DNA of 64,000 bases from Actinomortierella ambigua (lineage: Eukaryota; Mortierellomycota; Mortierellomycetes; Mortierellales; Mortierellaceae), in assembly GCA_016098155.1 (NCBI GenBank), contig JAAAJB010000029.1:50459-114458 (forward strand), read 5' to 3'. The notes beneath the pieces were generated by a model. It was not told the DNA's origin. It did not search any database and saw nothing but the letters and a program-made list of their open reading frames with translations. The position numbers and the translations under genes were made by a program. Shown piece after piece: positions 10,962-64,000 of the stretch. Position 1 is the stretch's first letter; each line of letters starts with the position of its first letter.

Positions 10962-13900
10962 TCATACCAAACTAGCCTTGCGTCCAGTCAGGTATGAAGG
11001 TCCCATCGGCAAAAGTGGGTGACGATAAGGCATCGAGGCTGACAATGGCGTTGTAAAGCCAGATCCCGGTAGCGAGGACGATCCGCCGCCGCTGCCCGAG
11101 GATGGATGGTGAGCCTGTCCTCCTGCTCCTGGCACTCCCCCTCCTGCTGCTGCTCCTCCTCCTCCTCCAAGCGCGTGGCCTAACAACGACATGCCGCCTG
11201 CTCCACCTCCGCTGTTACCACCTCCAACTCCACCACTGGCACCGCCTCCTTGCGACATCATCATATCTCGGAACGATGACTTTGGCAGCCGCAGTGTCAG
11301 CTCCTTGGTGATCTTAGTCAAGCTGGACACGCTCGTCAGCACCAGCCTTGAAAAGACTTCTGGTTGTTGTTGCGGTTGCTGTGGCTGCTGCTGTTGTTGT
11401 TGCGGTTGCGGCTGTTGCGGCTGTTGCGGCTGCGACTGAGACAGAGACTCGGCTCCGGTAGATCTGGTGCCTGCCGCCTTTTCCGCAATCGTCGACATGC
11501 TCACCGACCGCGAGGTCATCCTCGGTGTCAACACTGGCGACGCCGTCGTCGCGAGATGATGATGCTGCTGATGCTGATGATGATGATGATGATGGTTATG
11601 TCGAATATCACCTCCAGCAGACGTGCTTGAGCTTCGACCTGCCTTCACCCGAGTTGCTATCGTCGCAGTAGAAGTGGTAGCAGCAGCGGCGGCAGCCGCC
11701 GCCGCCGTGGCAACAGCAGAAGCAGCAGCAGCGGATCCTGGTCCTGTCACCGCCACCACCATCGATCGTCCTACGGCATCCCCTTCCACCGCTGTTGTTC
11801 CTGTTTCATGGTCACCACCACTAGCACTGTCGCCCGTTGTCGCCTCCAAGTTCATATTTGCCACACTGCTAGCAAATGAACGATTGGCGGAAGCGCCTGC
11901 ACCACCGCCCGTAGCAGCAGTACTACCACCGCCACCACCACCACTACCAACACCCATAATGTCGGCCGTCGAGCTATCGGACTTTGATCGCCGCTGACTG
12001 GGCGATGACACCGTTCGGCTGCTCGAGGTGGTGCCCGTCGACTTTAGCATCGGCGACGTCGGTGGGCTCTGATTCCGCTGCAGGTGAGCTAGTGCCATCG
12101 CCGCGGTCGTACCTGATGTTGATGTGGCTGTTGCTCCTGCTGTTGCTGCTGATGACGACGTGGTCATGGTGGTCATGGCCGTCATTGTCGTAGTTGTCAT
12201 TGTCGTCGTGGTCGTGGTCGTGGTCGTAGTGGTCAAGGTATTATTCCCTGTCGCGCCAGTGGTGGTGGTGCTGTTCAAGCTCGATGTTGTCGACAGCGTT
12301 GACGACAATTGCTTCACCAGGGTTGAGATCACAATCACCGACTTTACAAAATCATTCAGGCCTGCCACGAAGCGCCGGCGGAGGGCGTTTCCTTCATCCG
12401 TTCCACTGAAACTACCATTGATGCCGGGCGTCGAAGGGTAATGTGGATGGTTGGGATGCATCATGACTGAGCCACTGTTGCCACCGCCTCCACTCGATGA
12501 CACGTGATGTGGGTGATACGGGAGGAATCCATGTCCATGTGCATGCATACCACCACCACCACCACCATGCACATATGCGACACCACCGCCACCACCACCA
12601 CCACCTTGATATTCGTCCACGCGAAGCATCGATAGATCCAAATCTAGCCGCTTCACGATCTCCGTCATCTGGTTCAGTGAATCGCGCATGTCACGCCACA
12701 GTTGTGTCGGCGTCGCGCCAGAACCAATGTTTTGCAACGTCGCCGCCGTCGAGAGAGCTGGCAGTGGTGTGACGAGCTGGGTATTTGTGTTGTTGCTGTG
12801 GCTGTAAAAATGGTTGTTGCTGTTGCCACTGTTGTTGTTGTTGCTACTGCTGCTGCTACCGTTGCTGTGGTTGGTATTGAAAGGATGGTGGTGGTAGTGA
12901 TGGTGGTGAGGGTGGTGAGGATGATGTGGGTGCACTGGCCCTGTACTAGAGCCGATCGCCATGAATCCGCCATTCGTCAAAAATCCCCCTGAAGGAAGCG
13001 AGGACGATATGGATCCTGAAATACCGCCAGTCATCAACATGCCTTGATGAGGGATGCCGGTAGCGCGTGAGGCCATTGACCCGCTCCCGATAATACCTGC
13101 GTTTGAGAAAGACCTTGGTCCAAGTGGCATCGACTGAAAAGTGGTTGTCGTTGGTTGTGCCCCTCCTGATCCATTGATGTCATCGGCCCGTGGTGTGGAA
13201 GCTCGGGTACCGAGACCTCCTGCTGTTGTCTGTGCTGCAGCATTGTTCGCTAAGGGCGCCTGCACCCCTTGCTGCAATCCTGATGATACAGACTCGCTCG
13301 TGGCAGCACTTGTTGCTGTAGATGAGAATGCCGTCTTTGTCGACACTGGAGATGAAGGAATACCTGGCGCTTGTCTGTTGCCGGAAATGGCACGTTGATT
13401 CCAAATGGACATCTTGCGGCCATCGCCTCGAGGGGCTGAAGAAACAGGCAACGAAGGTAGCGTGTCCGACATCAAGGCCGCATCCTGAGGCGTGCTGTTG
13501 TTGCTGGGACTTGAAGACAGTGTCGCACCAGCCTTTGTGTTCGGTTGCGCCGGGATGCCAATCGGAAGGGAAACACACATGCCGTTGGAGTATGGGATGT
13601 TGTCAGAGACTGGGGAGAAGAGAGGTGAACGGATCAAGTAATCTGTGGTGTTACTGTTGGTTCCATTGGAGGCTTTGGTGTCAACAGCCAGCTGCACTGG
13701 ACTCATGGCGAGTGACGACCCTGTATCGGGGCCATTGTCAGACTTGTCCCCTCCAGCTGCGCTATTCACAGAGCCGCTGACTCCTGGTCCTGTCAGTCGC
13801 CCTCCTGAGCTGTGGACACTCTTGCCACTTGTGCTACTTCCACTGCTGCGCACAGGTGATGTTGTGACTGATCGATTCCATGTGCTTGGTCCTGGTCTTG

Positions 13901-56591: not shown

Positions 56592-56640
56592 ATGGTTAGC
56601 CTTGCCGAGCGCAGCGAGGCTAATAGGCCCATTATACGAG

Positions 56641-56771
56641 TAGGCCACTCTCCTGTAGTGTGTATCTCTTTTCATTTATTGTCTGAAAATCCAAAGAAAG
56701 AAAAATAAATAAATGATAGTGGCTTGTGACTACGCTAAAGAGGGACACCCTCCGAAATGGAGGACCTCATC
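56641..56771. repeat. Left inverted terminal repeat of the DIRS element
   Basis: 131 bp that read as the reverse complement of 60660-60790. Includes an AT-rich tract and the start TAGGCCACTCTCCTGTAG. Confidence 0.92.
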
Positions 56772-56805
56772 GATCCCAAGAGAAGGGTGGCAGAGGGCGG
56801 GCTAA

Positions 56806-56896
56806 CAGGAGAGTGGCCTACTCGTATAATGGGCCTATTAGCCTCGCTGCGCTCGGCAAGGCTAACCATTATACTCTAGGCCACTCTCCTGTAGTG
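56806..56896. repeat. Internal complementary region (ICR) of the DIRS element
   Basis: 56806-56869 is the perfect 64-nt reverse complement of the left outer end 56592-56655. From 56866 to 56896 it is the perfect reverse complement of the right outer end (through 60801). The two parts overlap by CCAT, the shared terminal bases. The recombinase stop codon lies inside it. Confidence 0.95.
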
Positions 56897-57948
56897 ACTC
56901 CAGAGCTTGAGGCGCCGGCCGGGCGTAGCAGGATGGACGTAAGGTCGGCGTCGCTCGCCTGTCCAATACGGTAATGGTTGCAAAACGTCGACGCTGCCGA
57001 CCAGTTGCCGTGGTGGACAATGGAATCCAGAGACGCGCCTCGCCTAGCCGCCAGCGTGGAGGCCATAGCGCGCGTCTTCGGGACTGCTACGCCTCGCGGA
57101 AGGGCCATGCGCTGCGAGAGGCGTCGGATGCGGCCGGCGATAGTGTCCGATTTCACCGGTACATTCAGGTGGCTGCAACTGCGAATCAGGGGTAACAACA
57201 TGATCGAAGCGTCGTTGGTGTGACCGCGGTCAGCGACCGAGACGTTGTCATCGGCTGGCCCGGTGCGCTCCCTGTAGGCCCTGTAGGCTTGAACAGGGCA
57301 GAGGAGTTCGTCCGAGAATGGGCGGATCTCGACTTGCTTGGTGATCCGCATACCGCCGCGCTTCTCCTTGGGGCCCACAATGAGGAGGCGCAACGAGCCC
57401 TGTACCATGGAGGAGCGTGCGACGTCGATATGCCTGATATCGCTAGGGCGCAGGAAGCCACAGATGGCTAAGAGCCAACAGGTCTTGTCCGTGAGATCGT
57501 CGAGCCTGAGGGTGTCGTTAGGCCCGAGATCCCTGATGTACTGGAACACGGGGGAAAGGTCAAAATCCGTCCAGGGTCTGTCCTGGAGCTGTCGAGTCTT
57601 CATGCGAGAGATGAAGGTGGCGAGATCCGGGTGGTCGCGAATCTCTGCGGCCTTGTCCGAGGGAAGGAGCTGAAGGATGAACGATCGGTGCTGGAGGACA
57701 GTGCTGACCTTCAGCTTTTCCTTCATGCGCAGGAACGAAAGATAGTTGATCACCGTGTTGAGGGTGATGTTGTCGATGTCGACATCGTCCCTGTCCTGAG
57801 CCCAACGCAAGAAACGTTGGGCGGAGTAGACCTTGCAGCGGTGAGTGGTGGGGTTGACAGTGGCTGGGTCCAGGATTGTCAACGCGTCCTCGTCGAGGCC
57901 TGTGGAGCGAGGCATGCCGAGTCGACGTGCCAGGCATATAGCGTCCAT
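56869..57948 (-). CDS. DIRS tyrosine recombinase (YR)
   Basis: About 359 residues from the ATG at 57948; the frame is open much further upstream, so the true start is uncertain. N-terminal SAM-like part: YSAQRFLRWAQDRDDVD and INYLSFLRMKEKLKVSTV. Catalytic part: first arginine in FLRPSDIRHID, a lysine-rich beta hairpin (GPKEKRGG), a second arginine in KTRAMASTLAARRG, and the final HHGNWSAASTFCNHY with the expected tyrosine nucleophile. The usual His of the HxxR box is replaced (the residue three before the arginine is Pro). The enzyme would recombine the circular DNA intermediate into the genome. The frame overlaps the end of the reverse transcriptase frame by 70 nt and stops with TAA inside the ICR. 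Confidence 0.88.
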   Translation of the reverse strand: MDAICLARRLGMPRSTGLDEDALTILDPATVNPTTHRCKVYSAQRFLRWAQDRDDVDIDNITLNTVINYLSFLRMKEKLKVSTVLQHRSFILQLLPSDKAAEIRDHPDLATFISRMKTRQLQDRPWTDFDLSPVFQYIRDLGPNDTLRLDDLTDKTCWLLAICGFLRPSDIRHIDVARSSMVQGSLRLLIVGPKEKRGGMRITKQVEIRPFSDELLCPVQAYRAYRERTGPADDNVSVADRGHTNDASIMLLPLIRSCSHLNVPVKSDTIAGRIRRLSQRMALPRGVAVPKTRAMASTLAARRGASLDSIVHHGNWSAASTFCNHYRIGQASDADLTSILLRPAGASSSGVTTGEWPRV

Positions 57949-59794
57949 AGAGGGTTGCCCGCGAGTGCGCTTGCGTCCGCTCCGGGGCCCGGGAGCACCT
58001 TGTCCTTCGGGAGGAGGACCTTGTCCACCGTCATCGCCTGAAGGTCCGGGTACCAGATCGCTGACGGCCAGAGGGGGGCTACCAGGGTTGCCCTCATAGG
58101 GTGCTGACGAAGTCTCTGAATCACCTGTGGGAGCAAGTTCCACGGTGGGCAGAGGTATGGGCGATCCAGAGTCGACCAGTCCAGTCGTAGCGCATCCATC
58201 GTGATCGCTTGGGGGTGAGGCTTCCATGATACGAACCTCGCTAACTTCGCGTTTTCTGGTGACGCGAAAAGGTCGGTGCAATGGGGACCCCACCGAACGT
58301 CGAGATCGTCGAAGGTGTCTTGCGCGATGGACCACTCCAGTTGCTGTTGCAGTCTGCGAGAGGGCGGATCGGCTGGGTTGAGAGCCGATGGAATGTATGT
58401 CATCCGGATCCGTGTGCCCGTCTGGAGGCAGTGGTGCCAGATCTTTCCCGCGAGCTCTCGGAGTGCGGGTGACTTTGTGCCGCCGAAGTTGGATACGTAA
58501 GCCAAGGTGACGGTGTTGTCGCACAAGAGGTGTATGACCCTGCCTTGGGTCTCCGGCTCCTGAAGGAAGTGCCAAACCGTGAGCAGTTCCTTGTGGTTGA
58601 TATGGAGCCCCTGTTCCTCCTGTGTCCAGAGTCGACTCTCCTGTGTCTCGCCCACGGACCACCCATAGCCTGTGTCGGAGGCGTCGACGAACGCCTCCAT
58701 GTCTGTGGGTTGGGGAACGAAGCCCTGTCCGTTCCACGACTGGAGGTGATCTACCCACCATTGGAGGTCCACGCTCGCCTCCTCCGTGATGGTAATCTGG
58801 TCTGTCCAGCTCGCGCCCGCGGCTAGACAATCGTTCTGTAGGCGAATCAGGCGTTGAAGCTGCAGCCTCGCAGGGAAAACTGCTACCGTAGTGGCCATCG
58901 CCTTGCCCACAAAGGCCGCAAGGTGTCGGAGCGTGCATGACGACTGGCGGAGAAGCTTGTGAGCGGTGCGACGAATCTCGCGCACTTTCTGGCCCGGAAC
59001 TGCAATGGTCATGTTGCGAGAGTCCAGGCGGAAGCCCAGATGTTCCAGAGACTGAGAGGGGGTCAATTGGGACTTCTCCTTGTTGACTAGAAAACCCAAC
59101 TTCTGGAGCTTTTGAACTACTGCCTGCGTGTGTCGTCTCGCACCCCTCTTGGTGGGGTGGCAAACCAGCCAGTCGTCCCCGTAGACCGTGAGGCGGATGC
59201 CTCGGCTCCTCGCCCACCGGAGGATGGGGCGATGTACCTTGGCATGGCACCACGGTGAAAGAGCCAGGCCGAAGACTAGAGCTTTGAAGCGATAGAGCTT
59301 GCCGCGCCATGAAAACTGTAGAAGATGGCGTGAACCCTCGTGAACCGGAACGTGGAAGAAAGCGTCTGACAAGTCGATGGACGTCATGAAGCAATTGGGT
59401 TGGAGCAGTGTGCATACCTGACGAATACCCTCCATCTTGAAGTGCTTCTTGGGGAGAAACCTGTTCAACGGGCGAAGGTTGAGGATGGGTCGTAGCCCGC
59501 CCTTGCGCTTGGGGATAGTGAATAGGCGGGAGCGAAAGCCAGGCCCTCGCGTCTCCTCTATTGCGTCTTTGGCCAGGAGAGTTTTGATTTCCTGGTCGAT
59601 TGCGGACACCTCCTCCGAAGAGAGCCGTGAGGGAGGAGGTGGTTTGTCGGTTAGAGGCGGGCGCCTCACCAAGGGGATTCGAAAGCCCCGAGATGTGACG
59701 GACCGGATCCATGGTGATGGACTTAGGCGGCGCCATTCGGTGGCGAAGTGGCGTAGACGTCCCCCGACTGGGATATCTACGCTCTGGCTTTTCC
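57879..59794 (-). CDS. DIRS reverse transcriptase-RNase H (pol)
   Basis: The frame opens at the end of gag and runs about 638 codons to 57879. The first part (GGRLRHFATEWRRLSPSPWI) is the conserved start of DIRS reverse transcriptases, yet the first in-frame ATG comes much later, after the fingers region has begun. This points to expression by ribosomal frameshifting from gag. Reverse transcriptase motifs: IPKRKGGLRPILNLRPLN, SIDLSDAFFHVPVHEG, and the catalytic YGDDW (59172-59183). RNase H: EAFVDASDTGYGWSVG, then HINHKELLTVWHFL and LLCDNTVTLAYVSNFGG. A DIRS-specific C-terminal extension follows (PPWNLLPQVIQRL and WPSAIWYPDL). It would copy the element's RNA into circular DNA. No stop or frameshift was seen within the frame. 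Confidence 0.92.
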
Positions 59795-60604
59795 CTTGGA
59801 CTTGCCGCTGTCCCGGTCCCGAGGAGTAGGGCGAGGGTAGCGCCCTTGGGGGGCCGGGGAAGACTGGCGGCGTGGCGGCGGAGTGCCAGTATCTGAAGAA
59901 GTTGGTTGAACTGCATCAGTCTCTCGTTTACCGCGAGAGAACTGGTACCGATGAGTCTTCTTCTTGGCGGGACTCTTGATGGCAGCCTTGGCAGCTGTCT
60001 GCTCCTTGCGAAGCCGTGCGAGGTCCTGAGTAGACACCAATGCTGGAGTGGTTGAGGGGTCGGGAGCGACCAAACCATGGGCCTCCACCACAGTGCGGGC
60101 ACGAAGCCGAGAGAGATCCGAAGAAGCCAATGAAAGGGAGTCGAGAACCAGATCGGTGAGACGTAAGGCTTGCTTCTGAAAGTCTTCTGGAGACTCGAAG
60201 GCCCCAGCGAGGATATCATGGGCGAAAAGAACGAGGGGCCTCGTGATGTCGGTGAGTAGACCTTGGACCTTGGCCACGTCTCGGTCAGTCTTGGAGCGAG
60301 CGGTGTCCAGCGGCACGCCTCTTTCGTGAGAATTGGGAGCTGAATACGGGAACCCGTCCAGTTTGACGACTTGGAGCTCCTCTCGGAGATCTCGGTCATC
60401 TTCACGCGTGTGGAAATGGCTCGGGTTGAGGTTGGGGAGAGCCGTTGCGAGCTGGGGGTAAAAGGCCAGTTCTGGGACCACGTTAGGGGCGCGGAGGGTC
60501 GGGATGGGAGCTTCCGGCTCGATGTCTGTGGAAGCGGTGCTGCTGGTAGTAGCCAAGCGCGCCAAGATCGACGCGAGTTCCGAAGAGAGATCTGCATGGG
60601 ACAT
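59777..60604 (-). CDS. DIRS gag-like protein
   Basis: 275 residues starting MSHADLSSELASILARLAT, from the first ATG inside the right terminal repeat. The middle is helical (TDRDVAKVQGLLTDITRPLVLFAHDIL, LRLTDLVLDSLSLASSDLSRLRARTVVEAHGL). The C-terminus is basic and rich in Pro, Arg and Ser, ending GKSKGKARA, a likely RNA-binding tail. No zinc knuckle was seen, which is normal for DIRS gag proteins. Identified by position and composition, not by sequence motif. The stop codon lies 10 bases past a slippery heptamer that leads into pol. Confidence 0.8.
   Translation of the reverse strand: MSHADLSSELASILARLATTSSTASTDIEPEAPIPTLRAPNVVPELAFYPQLATALPNLNPSHFHTREDDRDLREELQVVKLDGFPYSAPNSHERGVPLDTARSKTDRDVAKVQGLLTDITRPLVLFAHDILAGAFESPEDFQKQALRLTDLVLDSLSLASSDLSRLRARTVVEAHGLVAPDPSTTPALVSTQDLARLRKEQTAAKAAIKSPAKKKTHRYQFSRGKRETDAVQPTSSDTGTPPPRRQSSPAPQGRYPRPTPRDRDSGKSKGKARA
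59789..59795 (-). promoter_or_regulatory. Candidate -1 ribosomal frameshift site, GGGAAAA
   Basis: Read on the minus strand, the heptamer G-GGA-AAA is in the gag zero frame and fits the X-XXY-YYZ slippery pattern. Slipping back one base enters the pol frame directly (GGG AAA AGC CAG AGC GTA), and the gag TAG follows at 59779-59777. The pol frame has no early ATG, which supports the idea. A downstream pseudoknot was not analysed. Confidence 0.6.
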
Positions 60605-60659
60605 GTGATTGATCTGAAATTACACTCAGGGGTAATGTCCGGCAGTGAATGTGAAAAGA

Positions 60660-60790
60660 GATGAGGTCCTCCATTTCGGAGGGTGTCCCTCTTTAGCGTA
60701 GTCACAAGCCACTATCATTTATTTATTTTTCTTTCTTTGGATTTTCAGACAATAAATGAAAAGAGATACACACTACAGGAGAGTGGCCTA
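60660..60790. repeat. Right inverted terminal repeat of the DIRS element
   Basis: 131 bp, reverse complement of 56641-56771. It contains the gag leader; the gag start at 60604 lies just inside. Confidence 0.92.
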
Positions 60791-60801
60791 GAGTATAATG
60801 G

Positions 60802-62599
60802 ATGGAAACAAGGTCGATGAGTTCTTGGTCAGACCAGGTTGTCATCGTGGAGCGGTATTCCAGATACAGGACCAAGGCTTGTTTCTCAGGTGGGCAATGC
60901 GAGATTTAGTAGTTGCAGTCTTCTTCTCCTGCAGAAAAGCAAAGGGAGAGATTATACATGATGGTATGTCGAGGCAATTGTGTGAAGCAGAAAAAGGGGT
61001 GAGGGGGCTTTTATAGGAAGCGATACCAAAGTTTGCGGCCCTGTACATCAAAAACCACGAAGACTGCAAGTTTACTATGGAAATTGCAGTCTTCGTGATT
61101 CTTGATGTACCGGAAGGCGTTTGCCCTCCAGAATTCGATCCGTTGTGACCATCAGCCCGATCTTCGTGAAAAGTGAGCCGGGTAGATCTGCAGGAATTTT
61201 GGGTGGTAGTGTGGAAGAAGGGGATGGCGATAGAAGCCTTGGTGTGCAGATTGAGTCTTCAAGTGCCTAGAAGCAAGGAGGTGGTGCCTGTGACAGCAGC
61301 CAGGCCGCCGCAGAATACGACCGGCCCCTGCAGATTGATTTGGGACAAAGCAGTAGCCACTGCTCTCCGCGCCTGGCTTTCAGGACGATTCCAAAAGTTT
61401 CCGCAACCTGTACCCTGGCAACATATCAGCATGCCCGTCGCCTATCCTGAGAGACGTTCTTCCAGCATATCACTGGCCAAATCTCTCGAGATGCACAGCG
61501 GGCGTGCAGCACGTCGTATTGTGTGTTAGCGCCAGATCTTTCTTACTGAACAACGATGAACATGATACAGGCCATCCGAGGACATTTGCTAATGGTTTTG
61601 TTGCTGCCGATTGATGTGTGTCAACGTGACGCGCGAAAAAGAATCAAAGAAAAGCTGAAAAGGGAGAGGACTCTCTTCTTTTCACGCATTGGACAACCCC
61701 CCTCGGAATTCAATCGATCAATCTCATCCTTGAATGATGCAAATATTACTGCGCCATCTGCTGACACGGACCCTCGGGCCTCGTTGGGCTCATGCAGTGG
61801 CAAATCTAAGGAGCAACATGCCAGAATGGAGGAATAAGAAGCTCGAATGGGAGAGTGACAAGCCAGAATTCGTCAACTGAAGCCAGCCGAGATGGGAGAC
61901 AGTCAAGACAGGAAAAAAAAAGATAGCCTCAAGATCTAAAGCGAGCTTCTCGAGAAGCACCCGGCATTCGGCAAGACCCAACTTCTACAACGCCGAGCTA
62001 CCCAAGGACCACGACGTATTCGACTGGAATAACCTTCACTACACCCAAGACATGGAATAGAAGGGCCCGTCCCTCCTGTCTTAGGCCCCTCGGAATTTTC
62101 CCTCACAAGCCTTGTCAAGCAGCAGCATGGCCATGAAGACCTGGCAACAATTCAGGGATACCTGGCTCTATGACTCACTCGCACACACGAGCTTATCGAG
62201 TGTGGTGTCGCCGACCTCAACACCAGGGAATGTATTTTCGACTTCATAAACGTTGCGGGGGTCTCAGCCGTCAATGACACCTCCAGGATCCGTCAAATGC
62301 AGAGCGAGATCTACTGCAGCGGCTTGGGCATCAAGGTCAGCGCCAGTAAGGACAAGCCCACCCTTCTCCTGGAGGAGCTCGCCCCAAGAAGACAGTCGCG
62401 GAACTTCCTTGAAAAAAAAAAACGTACAAATAGCCAGAGCCTCCGAAAGGGTGGAAGAAGCGTTTCAAGACTCCCCAGTGGACGGACAATTTCAAGTCTG
62501 AGAGCTCCAGAGACAGGGCAGCATCAAACAGCAAAGACGACCAAACTATCGGATCACAAGTATGGCAACAAGTCTAGCAGTAAGTATCGGGGCAACTCT
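60802..62599. other. Right flank of the DIRS element, partly decayed transposon sequence
   Basis: No intact gene. A near-perfect hairpin sits at 61043-61110. From about 61550, Ser/Lys/Glu/Gln-rich frames interrupted by stops look like decayed gag sequence of the plus-strand DIRS-like copy that follows, but this rests on position and composition only. Confidence 0.4.
61043..61110. repeat. Long inverted repeat (hairpin), 27-bp arms
   Basis: 61043-61069 pairs with 61084-61110 at 25 of 27 positions across a 14-nt loop; the inner 14 pairs are perfect. Not part of the DIRS terminal repeats. Confidence 0.85.
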
Positions 62600-64000
62600 C
62601 GCAGCCCAGCAAACATCAGTCCTACACGGGAAACGACGGAGAGAAGTCGGATCAGTGAGCGGTCGACTTCTCCAGTTTCAAGAGGAATGGAGGAACAAGG
62701 CGGGCTCCGACTGGGTCAACGGCATTTTCAGTTCAAGGTACAGCATCATCTTCGACCACCCCTCTACGCCTACCTCCTCTGGCACCCCGTTCAATTAAGA
62801 GGGGAAACGCCTAGCGATCGACACCGAGGTCCGTTCGCTTTTACAGAAAAGGTTCGTCGAAGAATGCAGCGGCAAGGACTTCTACAGCTGCATTTTTACC
62901 ATTCCCATGACAACAGGGGACATGAGACGATGTCTGAGCCTCCGACCTCTCAACCAGTTCATCTCGGTCTCCTAAGTTCAACATGACGACACTCACCCAC
63001 ATCTGCAGGATGCTCAAGCCAGGCGACTGGATGACGAGTTTAGTCCTGAGCGACGCATTTTTGCACGTAAGAATTAACCCTCAGTCGCGCAAATACTTGC
63101 GCTTCGGATGGGGCGACAAATGCTACCAATTCAAGACCCTATCCTTCGGGTTGTCCCTGTCCCTCAAGTCTTCACAAAGATAACACGCCCAGTGCTCCCG
63201 TAGGTCTGGTAGCAGGGTATATGGATATCGGCATACTTAGACGACTTCATAATCGCCGCCAGCTTCAAAGTGGAAGCCAGAAAGTACACTCTATGAGTCA
63301 GAGAGCAGATGAAAAAAACTCGGCTTTTTGATCAAGGACGCCAAACCCACACTAGAACCGCCCAATGTATCGACCACTTGGGCCTCAGGATCATCACAAC
63401 CAACATGACGATATCAGTCCCAAAGACCAAGGTCTGAGAACTGAGGAGCGAAGAAGAGAAACTGCCCAAGGCGGGAACGACTCACCTCCTGCTACTTGCA
63501 GCGCCCATAGGAAAGGCAATTGCTATGATGGTAGCCGTTTTCCCGGCACGATTCAAGACAGGAGGTCTGATACAATTGCAGAGCATAGCATTGACACGGA
63601 AATGCAGCTGGACAGACCTGGTGATATTGACCACATCGGCGAGAGAGAGCCTCGAATGGTGGAAGTCGCACATGTTGGGATGGAACGGACAGGGACTCTT
63701 ACTTCAGGAGACAGGTGGATGTCTACACGGACGCTTCGAAGGACGCTTGTGGCATTGTGCTGGATGGTGAGGAGACAGTCCATGGAATGGATGCCATAGG
63801 AACAATCGCATCGTATCAACTAGAAGGAGCTGCGGGTCATCTGGCACCTGGTTCGCATGCCCTCCATGGTGATAAAGACAATTCATGTGATCTGAGGCAG
63901 CATGGCGACTAGTGATTCTAACTTGGTTGGGACCAGTTGGGACTGGTCGAAAGCCTCTCCCGGGACCCTTCCAACTTCCAACAAATCGGTTGGTTGGTCA
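62600..64000 (+). mobile_element. Decayed DIRS-like retrotransposon, reverse transcriptase-RNase H part, cut by the window edge
   Basis: In shifting plus-strand frames the DIRS reverse transcriptase order can be followed: GRLLQFQEEWRNKAGSDWV (start region), CIFTIPMTTGDMRRCLSLRPLNQF, SLVLSDAFLHVRINPQSRKYLRF, YLDDFIIAASF (63234 onward, catalytic YLDD), HLGLRIITTNMTISVPKTK, then IGKAIAMMVAVFPARFKT and SLEWWKSHMLGWNGQGL, and RNase H DVYTDASKDACGIVLDG (from 63718). Several frameshifts and stops separate these blocks, so it is a pseudogene. Residue differences from the complete element (YLDD against YGDD, different spacing) show a different DIRS lineage, in the opposite orientation. Recombinase and right end lie outside. 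Confidence 0.85.

Follow-up and report, generated by a model that had tools for sequence, protein, structure and literature searches.

The DNA analysed here (the window) is a 64,000-nucleotide stretch of contig JAAAJB010000029.1 from Actinomortierella ambigua, and its positions 56592-60801 carry an element with gag, pol and tyrosine recombinase (YR) reading frames, inverted terminal repeats (ITRs) and an internal complementary region (ICR), as listed in Table 1. We regard it, with a probability of about 0.9, as a DIRS1-like tyrosine-recombinase retrotransposon that is complete and was recently inserted in the genome of this Mortierellaceae fungus. The coding strand is the minus strand, so the 5' end lies at 60801 and the 3' end at 56592; the sequence-only reading made earlier of this DNA gave no strand. 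Its proposal of a complete DIRS element is supported by the repeats, the domains and the homologues of pol and YR.

The mismatch-free ITRs and ICR halves described in that reading were reproduced. The left ICR match runs between 56592-56656 and 56805-56869 (65 nt, 64 of them inside the ICR as first delimited, 100%) and the right one between 56866-56896 and 60771-60801 (31 nt, 100%); they overlap at 56866-56869, where the circle junction lies. Chance is ruled out as the source of perfect matches of 131, 65 and 31 nt. About 36 nt of the outer coding-3' terminus have no counterpart at the opposite end when the two ends are compared by eye. Taken alone, the ICR strand folds strongly (z = -8.5), and none of 200 shuffles was equally stable. 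Direct repeats within the element are limited to two families, a chance-like pair of 71% identity and a 20-nt pair that is due to the ICR. An inversion between the ITRs since insertion was considered and rejected, because it would turn the ICR into a direct copy of the ends; as the ICR is inverted relative to both of them, the interior has not been flipped by ITR recombination.

All three frames, previously called open, were confirmed to be so on the minus strand. The pol frame lies at -1 relative to gag and has no early ATG, and the ATG of the YR frame sits 7 nt after that of gag, in a frame free of stops from 60711 to 56871. RVT_1 in pol (2.5e-24) was the only Pfam family in the element to reach its curated cut-off. 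The RNase H of pol was seen through alignment with relatives, no RNase H family having reached cut-off. Several features of DIRS1-like elements are found together here, namely ITRs, a two-part ICR overlapping at the junction, a reverse transcriptase (RT) followed by RNase H, a Dam-like domain and a tyrosine recombinase. The three perfect repeat sets with an inverted ICR, combined with the RVT_1, Dam and integrase-type matches, support the DIRS1-like reading.

The HSTR (HxxR) motif of YR is absent, and the box reads PKTR instead. As HSTR is present in just 13 of the 28 published elements covered by PMC3266345, the motif is not family-defining. A decayed YR was also rejected, since PKAR in three relatives (P0121-P0123) shows that PKTR is not decay; P0124 is without that region. 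The RT active-site box is YGDD here, and among seven aligned relatives it is YLDD in six and SLDD in one; YL/IDD is given for 25 of the 28 published elements (PMC3266345).

The homologue search with pol, in which the best 7994 candidates were scored, returned 202 proteins at E <= 1e-3, 120 of them listed. Among the matches listed, the closest (P0001-P0042) are 47-53% identical over 73-95% of pol, with RVT_1 in all 42 and the Dam family PF05869 in 33. The same matches include proteins of Rhizopus delemar (46% over 52%), Circinella minor (47% over 46%) and the sponge Sycon ciliatum (38% over 87% of pol). A scan of viral contigs with pol gave no match. For YR, a search limited to proteins of about 683-2173 aa yielded four homologues, with a best E of 6e-56, and they come from Phycomyces blakesleeanus (P0121, P0122) and Smittium culicis (P0123, P0124); P0123, with an E of 1.1e-48, is named Tyr recombinase domain-containing. 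These proteins are 31-36% identical to the present YR in alignment A1 and, judged by eye, start with a gag-like part fused to YR, whereas gag is a separate frame here.

Table 1. Features of the element and its surroundings, with related sequences in the same assembly (window positions unless a locus or contig is named)
Feature	Position	Strand	Basis
DIRS1-like retrotransposon, complete, 4210 bp	56592..60801	-	repeats, domains, boundaries
ITR at coding 3' end, 131 bp	56641..56771	.	100% complementary to 60660-60790
ITR at coding 5' end, 131 bp	60660..60790	.	inverted-repeat search
Coding-3' terminus, outer part outside the 131-bp ITR, ICR-matched	56592..56640	.	65-nt match
ICR, inverted copy of joined ends (circle junction)	56806..56896	-	repeat search; fold z -8.5
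Imperfect palindrome, 28 nt, proposed recombinase-binding or structural site	56596..56623	.	shuffle test, copy comparison
gag ORF, 275 aa	59777..60604	-	open reading frame (ORF) search; no Pfam match at E <= 1
pol open frame, 678 codons, RT / RNase H / Dam-like methyltransferase	57879..59915	-	Pfam, alignment A3
YR frame, 1242 codons, YR domain at 3' end	56869..60597	-	ORF search, Pfam, homologues
TGG, left copy of proposed 3-bp exchange core (ATGG including 56592)	56593..56595	+	relics
TGG, right copy of proposed core; host-repeat homology starts here	60799..60801	+	host-repeat copies
CCA, core within ICR (complement of TGG)	56866..56868	+	sequence, repeat search
TATA, proposed promoter motif	60794..60797	-	23-26 nt outside inner edge of 31-nt ICR-matched end; position only
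AATAAA, proposed poly(A) signal, 3' ITR	56675..56680	-	about 20 nt inside edge of 65-nt ICR-matched end; position only
Right flank, part of dispersed host repeat	60802..60865	+	copies in C26, C39 (two places), C763
pol remnant, decayed, DIRS-type	62622..63934	+	31-34% identical to the element's pol
Relic C51, 84-bp mini-element	L022 4340-4423 (C51:18340-18423)
Relic C293, about 250 bp, with 37 aa of YR tail at 86%	L024 4086-4357
Relic C57, degenerate terminus
Relic C783, about 70 bp of ITR-to-ICR stretch
Relics C365 and C606, pol pieces

As described in Table 3 of PMC3266345, a likeness of descriptions and not base by base, MciDIRS1, PblDIRS1 and RoDIRS1 of the Mucoromycotina (4274-4402 bp, against 4210 bp here) share with this element the order gag, RT-RNase H-methyltransferase and YR, the ITRs, the two-part ICR and a long YR-pol overlap. 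They differ in having ATT at both ends and the junction AAT, where the present junction is TGG, and their left and right extensions are given as 28-38 and 9-11, while here only the roughly 36 nt at the coding 3' end are clear. DIRS-1 of Dictyostelium discoideum is alike in its single extension, on the right (3') side, its ICR and its YR (PMC3266345, Table 3), but has TAA rather than TGG at the junction (PMC3266345). It is described as the most frequent retrotransposon of its host (PMC5633606), whereas one full copy was found here. Mortierella verticillata has already been reported to carry YR elements (PMC3783388), and the element adds one more Mortierellaceae species to an already known class.

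Searches of the 33.8-Mb assembly were run with the terminal 309 bp, pol, YR and the right terminus, and the resulting counts are lower bounds. One full copy was found, and the remainder are relics. The other copies and empty sites to which the sequence-only reading had pointed as a check thus turned up in part: relics were recovered, and no empty site is demonstrable, as the left flank is unlike the four host-repeat copies that cross the junction. Both proposed boundaries held. At 56592, none of the terminal relics C51, C293 and C57 reaches beyond the left boundary, the first two resembling the element from TGG inward and not outside it, and C57 from 56596 inward. At 60801, the right boundary is marked by the four uninterrupted copies of the host repeat (C26, C39 twice, C763), which run unbroken through the junction as RCTTTGSATSG and share homology with the right flank starting at about 60799. 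At four more places the match to the host-repeat query ends after its first 43-50 bases, short of the junction. The dispersed repeat itself (window 60799-61043; L029, L030, L033, L034) has no shared long open frame. Just right of the element, at window 61053-61100, lies an inverted repeat of 20 nt (90%) with an 8-nt loop.

The element ends do share 4 bp, ATGG, as noted earlier, although the claim that this defines the junction to the base holds only in part, given TTGG in two relics and a further ATGG in the right flank (60798-60805). Relics C51 and C293 have TTGG at the left end where the full copy has ATGG, so the first letter can be host-derived, and the exchanged core is probably TGG, 3 bp in length. 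The right end of C293 reads TATAACG and yields no core. Beyond ATGG, no direct repeat was seen by eye at the element ends, at a site whose left flank is unmatched and whose empty form is not demonstrable. Upstream of TGG, both C51 and C293 have TT (TTTGG), and the left flank here reads GAATATGG. A TTTGG target rule, which fits C51 and C293, is not claimed, as the host repeat has TTTGG in two of its four copies and TTTGC in the other two.

In the published model, the ICR restores the ends and YR integrates a circle (PMC3266345), and circular intermediates have been verified for DIRS-1 (PMC5633606). Applied to the present element, transcription would begin within the 5' ITR, downstream of the TATA at 60797-60794, and end in the 3' ITR after AATAAA (56680-56675), and the transcript would be without the outermost ~31 nt at the 5' side and ~65 nt at the 3' side. 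The ICR halves coincide with the stretches that such a TATA-to-AATAAA transcript would lack, which supports the end-restoration model. For DIRS-1, promoter activity has been reported for both ITRs (PMC4482531). After reverse transcription, the ICR may act as both template and splint, restoring the two ends and closing the circle. YR would then recombine the circle junction with a TGG of the host, so that a single TGG remains at either side and any target duplication is no longer than this. As for translation, pol may be reached via a -1 shift from gag, and YR possibly by leaky scanning to its ATG. For a gag-to-pol -1 slip, the slippery motif GGGAAAA at 59795 has the correct frame, as far as a motif can tell, and CCCCCCA at 59853 was rejected as being out of frame. 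With its exact ends, an ICR covering the parts that a transcript would miss and a non-NTT junction, the element would offer a compact test case for end rebuilding and target choice.

A long YR-pol overlap is described for all five fungal elements of PMC3266345; what appears to be new here is that the overlap reaches across gag too, beginning at the ATG 7 nt past that of gag. When compared with synonymous shuffles, the YR frame has no stops in the pol overlap against 13.0 expected (0 of 5000 shuffles reach zero), and none in the gag overlap against 3.2 expected (42 of 5000); the same test with 2000 shuffles gave a similar result. At the pol offset, five host control ORFs gave the following stops seen/expected: SOG2 39/62.5 (0 of 5000 shuffles as few), eEF3 24/34.7, iPGM 10/17.2, YVC1 18/23.5 and Sel1 21/22.9. 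At the gag offset they showed no consistent deficit (eEF3 22/23.6, SOG2 57/54.6, iPGM 11/10.6, YVC1 9/13.3, Sel1 17/13.7). Scaled by the control ratios (0.58-0.92), the expectation for the pol overlap becomes about 7.5-12 stops, against none seen. In the decayed pol relics, stops in the YR, pol and third frames number 4, 3 and 11 (C365), 1, 1 and 6 (C606) and 7, 7 and 19 (the window remnant). The YR frame there is about as open as pol and more open than the third frame, which lends weak support to a YR frame that is kept open.

Several observations weigh against reading the locus as a recent DIRS1-like insertion with these properties. A single full copy gives no direct sign of transposition. 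The Dam match in pol stays below its cut-off (E 4.3e-5, 23.7 bits against 28.1), and so do the SAM-like (Phage_int_SAM_4, 3.3e-4) and Phage_integrase (0.02) matches in YR. The AlphaFold2 model of YR has a mean pLDDT (its per-residue confidence score) of 45.7 and is unusable, and a profile search of the PDB with alignment A1 gave no matches at E <= 1. The proposed TGG core fits the published junction in its 3-bp length, but its letters are not the usual NTT, which is given for 23 of the 28 published elements (PMC3266345). Four further TATA motifs are present within the element, and two overlapping AATAAA motifs lie in the 5' ITR (60727-60718), downstream of the proposed start. Because the host ORFs are also stop-poor at the pol/YR offset, the shuffle test overstates significance. 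Finally, the left half of the host repeat was sought left of 56592 and was not found; any one of a deletion, an earlier truncation, a recombination event between copies and a misjoin would account for its absence.

It is this missing half that sustains the most durable alternative, in which the element is real but the locus composite, its two flanks not being the product of a single, simple insertion. Such a locus might have arisen through collapsed copies, through a misjoin close to where contig C212 ends, through recombination of two copies or through a deletion on the left. Elsewhere the host repeat is uninterrupted in four copies, yet its left half is missing at 56592; the left ends of C51 and C293 read TTTGG against GAATATGG at the left flank here; and the end of the window is the end of contig C212. 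On the other hand, the contig crosses all 4.2 kb without a break, and the assembly searches revealed no near-identical element sequence at another place or contig end, the nearest element sequence to a contig end being a pol relic of 41% identity that lies 222 bases from where C606 ends. A host repeat already truncated when the element was inserted would give the same picture. We therefore consider a composite locus unlikely, though it deserves to be kept in view.

A recent insertion, as the sequence-only reading had it, is upheld as an upper bound and no further. With zero differences, the 95% upper bound on divergence is 2.3% (131 pairs) or 1.3% (227 pairs, the sets partly overlapping), so that 'recent' would mean a divergence under about 1.3-2.3%, as estimated from this one copy. 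An old copy might also look this way if gene conversion or hairpin repair had kept the ITRs and ICR identical, in which case their identity would be uninformative on age. The repeats are able to pair with each other, and the ICR strand folds strongly. However, all three reading frames are intact as well, including one of 3.7 kb, the ICR separately matches two ends that differ from each other, and the frames of this genome's pol relics are broken, which makes an old but repaired copy improbable. The pol remnant in the window, for instance, has 7 stops in its pol frame over 62622-63713, its first 1092 bases. A PAT-like or Ngaro-like element (as defined in PMC3266345 and PMC3783388) would likewise have RT and YR, which are common to those groups, but can be practically dismissed on the true ITRs and ICR, the lack of split direct repeats and, for Ngaro, the Dam-like domain that Ngaro lacks and the lack of A-pol-B-A-B repeats.

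Returning to the DIRS1-like element, its coding-3' terminus contains a 28-nt palindrome in which 22 of the 28 positions are self-complementary, a degree matched by 4 of 20000 shuffles. It is letter-identical in the 3' terminus, the ICR, C51 and C293, while the adjoining ITR varies; a search allowing up to 3 mismatches gave four matches, all with none. In the degenerate relic C57, four differences were counted by eye. A role as a recombinase-binding site is a guess. The 69-nt terminus alone folds unremarkably (z -1.19, 23 of 200 shuffles as stable), which counts against the palindrome.

Two of the relics fold back on themselves. C51 contains nothing but DIRS ends and lies between TTGG and ATGG; it forms two hairpins, the 28-nt palindrome and a perfect 20-bp ITR stem with a 7-nt loop (z -9.9, a stability reached by 0 of 200 shuffles). 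In C293, a 79-nt stretch is present as an inverted duplication (85%) whose arms are separated by 44 nt, and the YR tail is part of it. Both belong to a sister subfamily, with TAGGCAACT for TAGGCCACT, and both look like DIRS ends shrunk to hairpins. As a tentative proposal, still on the doubtful side, they may be hairpin-only mini-elements that arose by RT snap-back in the ITR/ICR and were inserted by YR in trans at a host TGG, with the palindrome plus the ITR tip as the minimal recombinase substrate. We lowered our confidence in it slightly when the TTTGG rule was not upheld by the host repeat. C293 is flanked on both sides by an imperfect 12-nt direct repeat (92%, common CGTATTTT), an unexplained feature that speaks against its simple insertion by YR. 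Two examples are too few to establish hairpin relics as a class, and a literature search for non-autonomous, miniature or hairpin DIRS forms found none in titles and abstract openings, which is no proof of absence. Such relics nevertheless suggest a route to the smallest DNA that a DIRS recombinase accepts.

Outside the element, five of the seven ORFs tested between window positions 10965 and 50495 were recognised by Pfam as host genes (SOG2-type, iPGM, Sel1, FYRN and YVC1-type). A host exon of 748 aa in the same region is 100% identical (99% covered) to an A. ambigua protein annotated as EF-1 alpha. Elongation factor 3 is the name given to several of the relatives listed with it, and we took the exon to be that factor.

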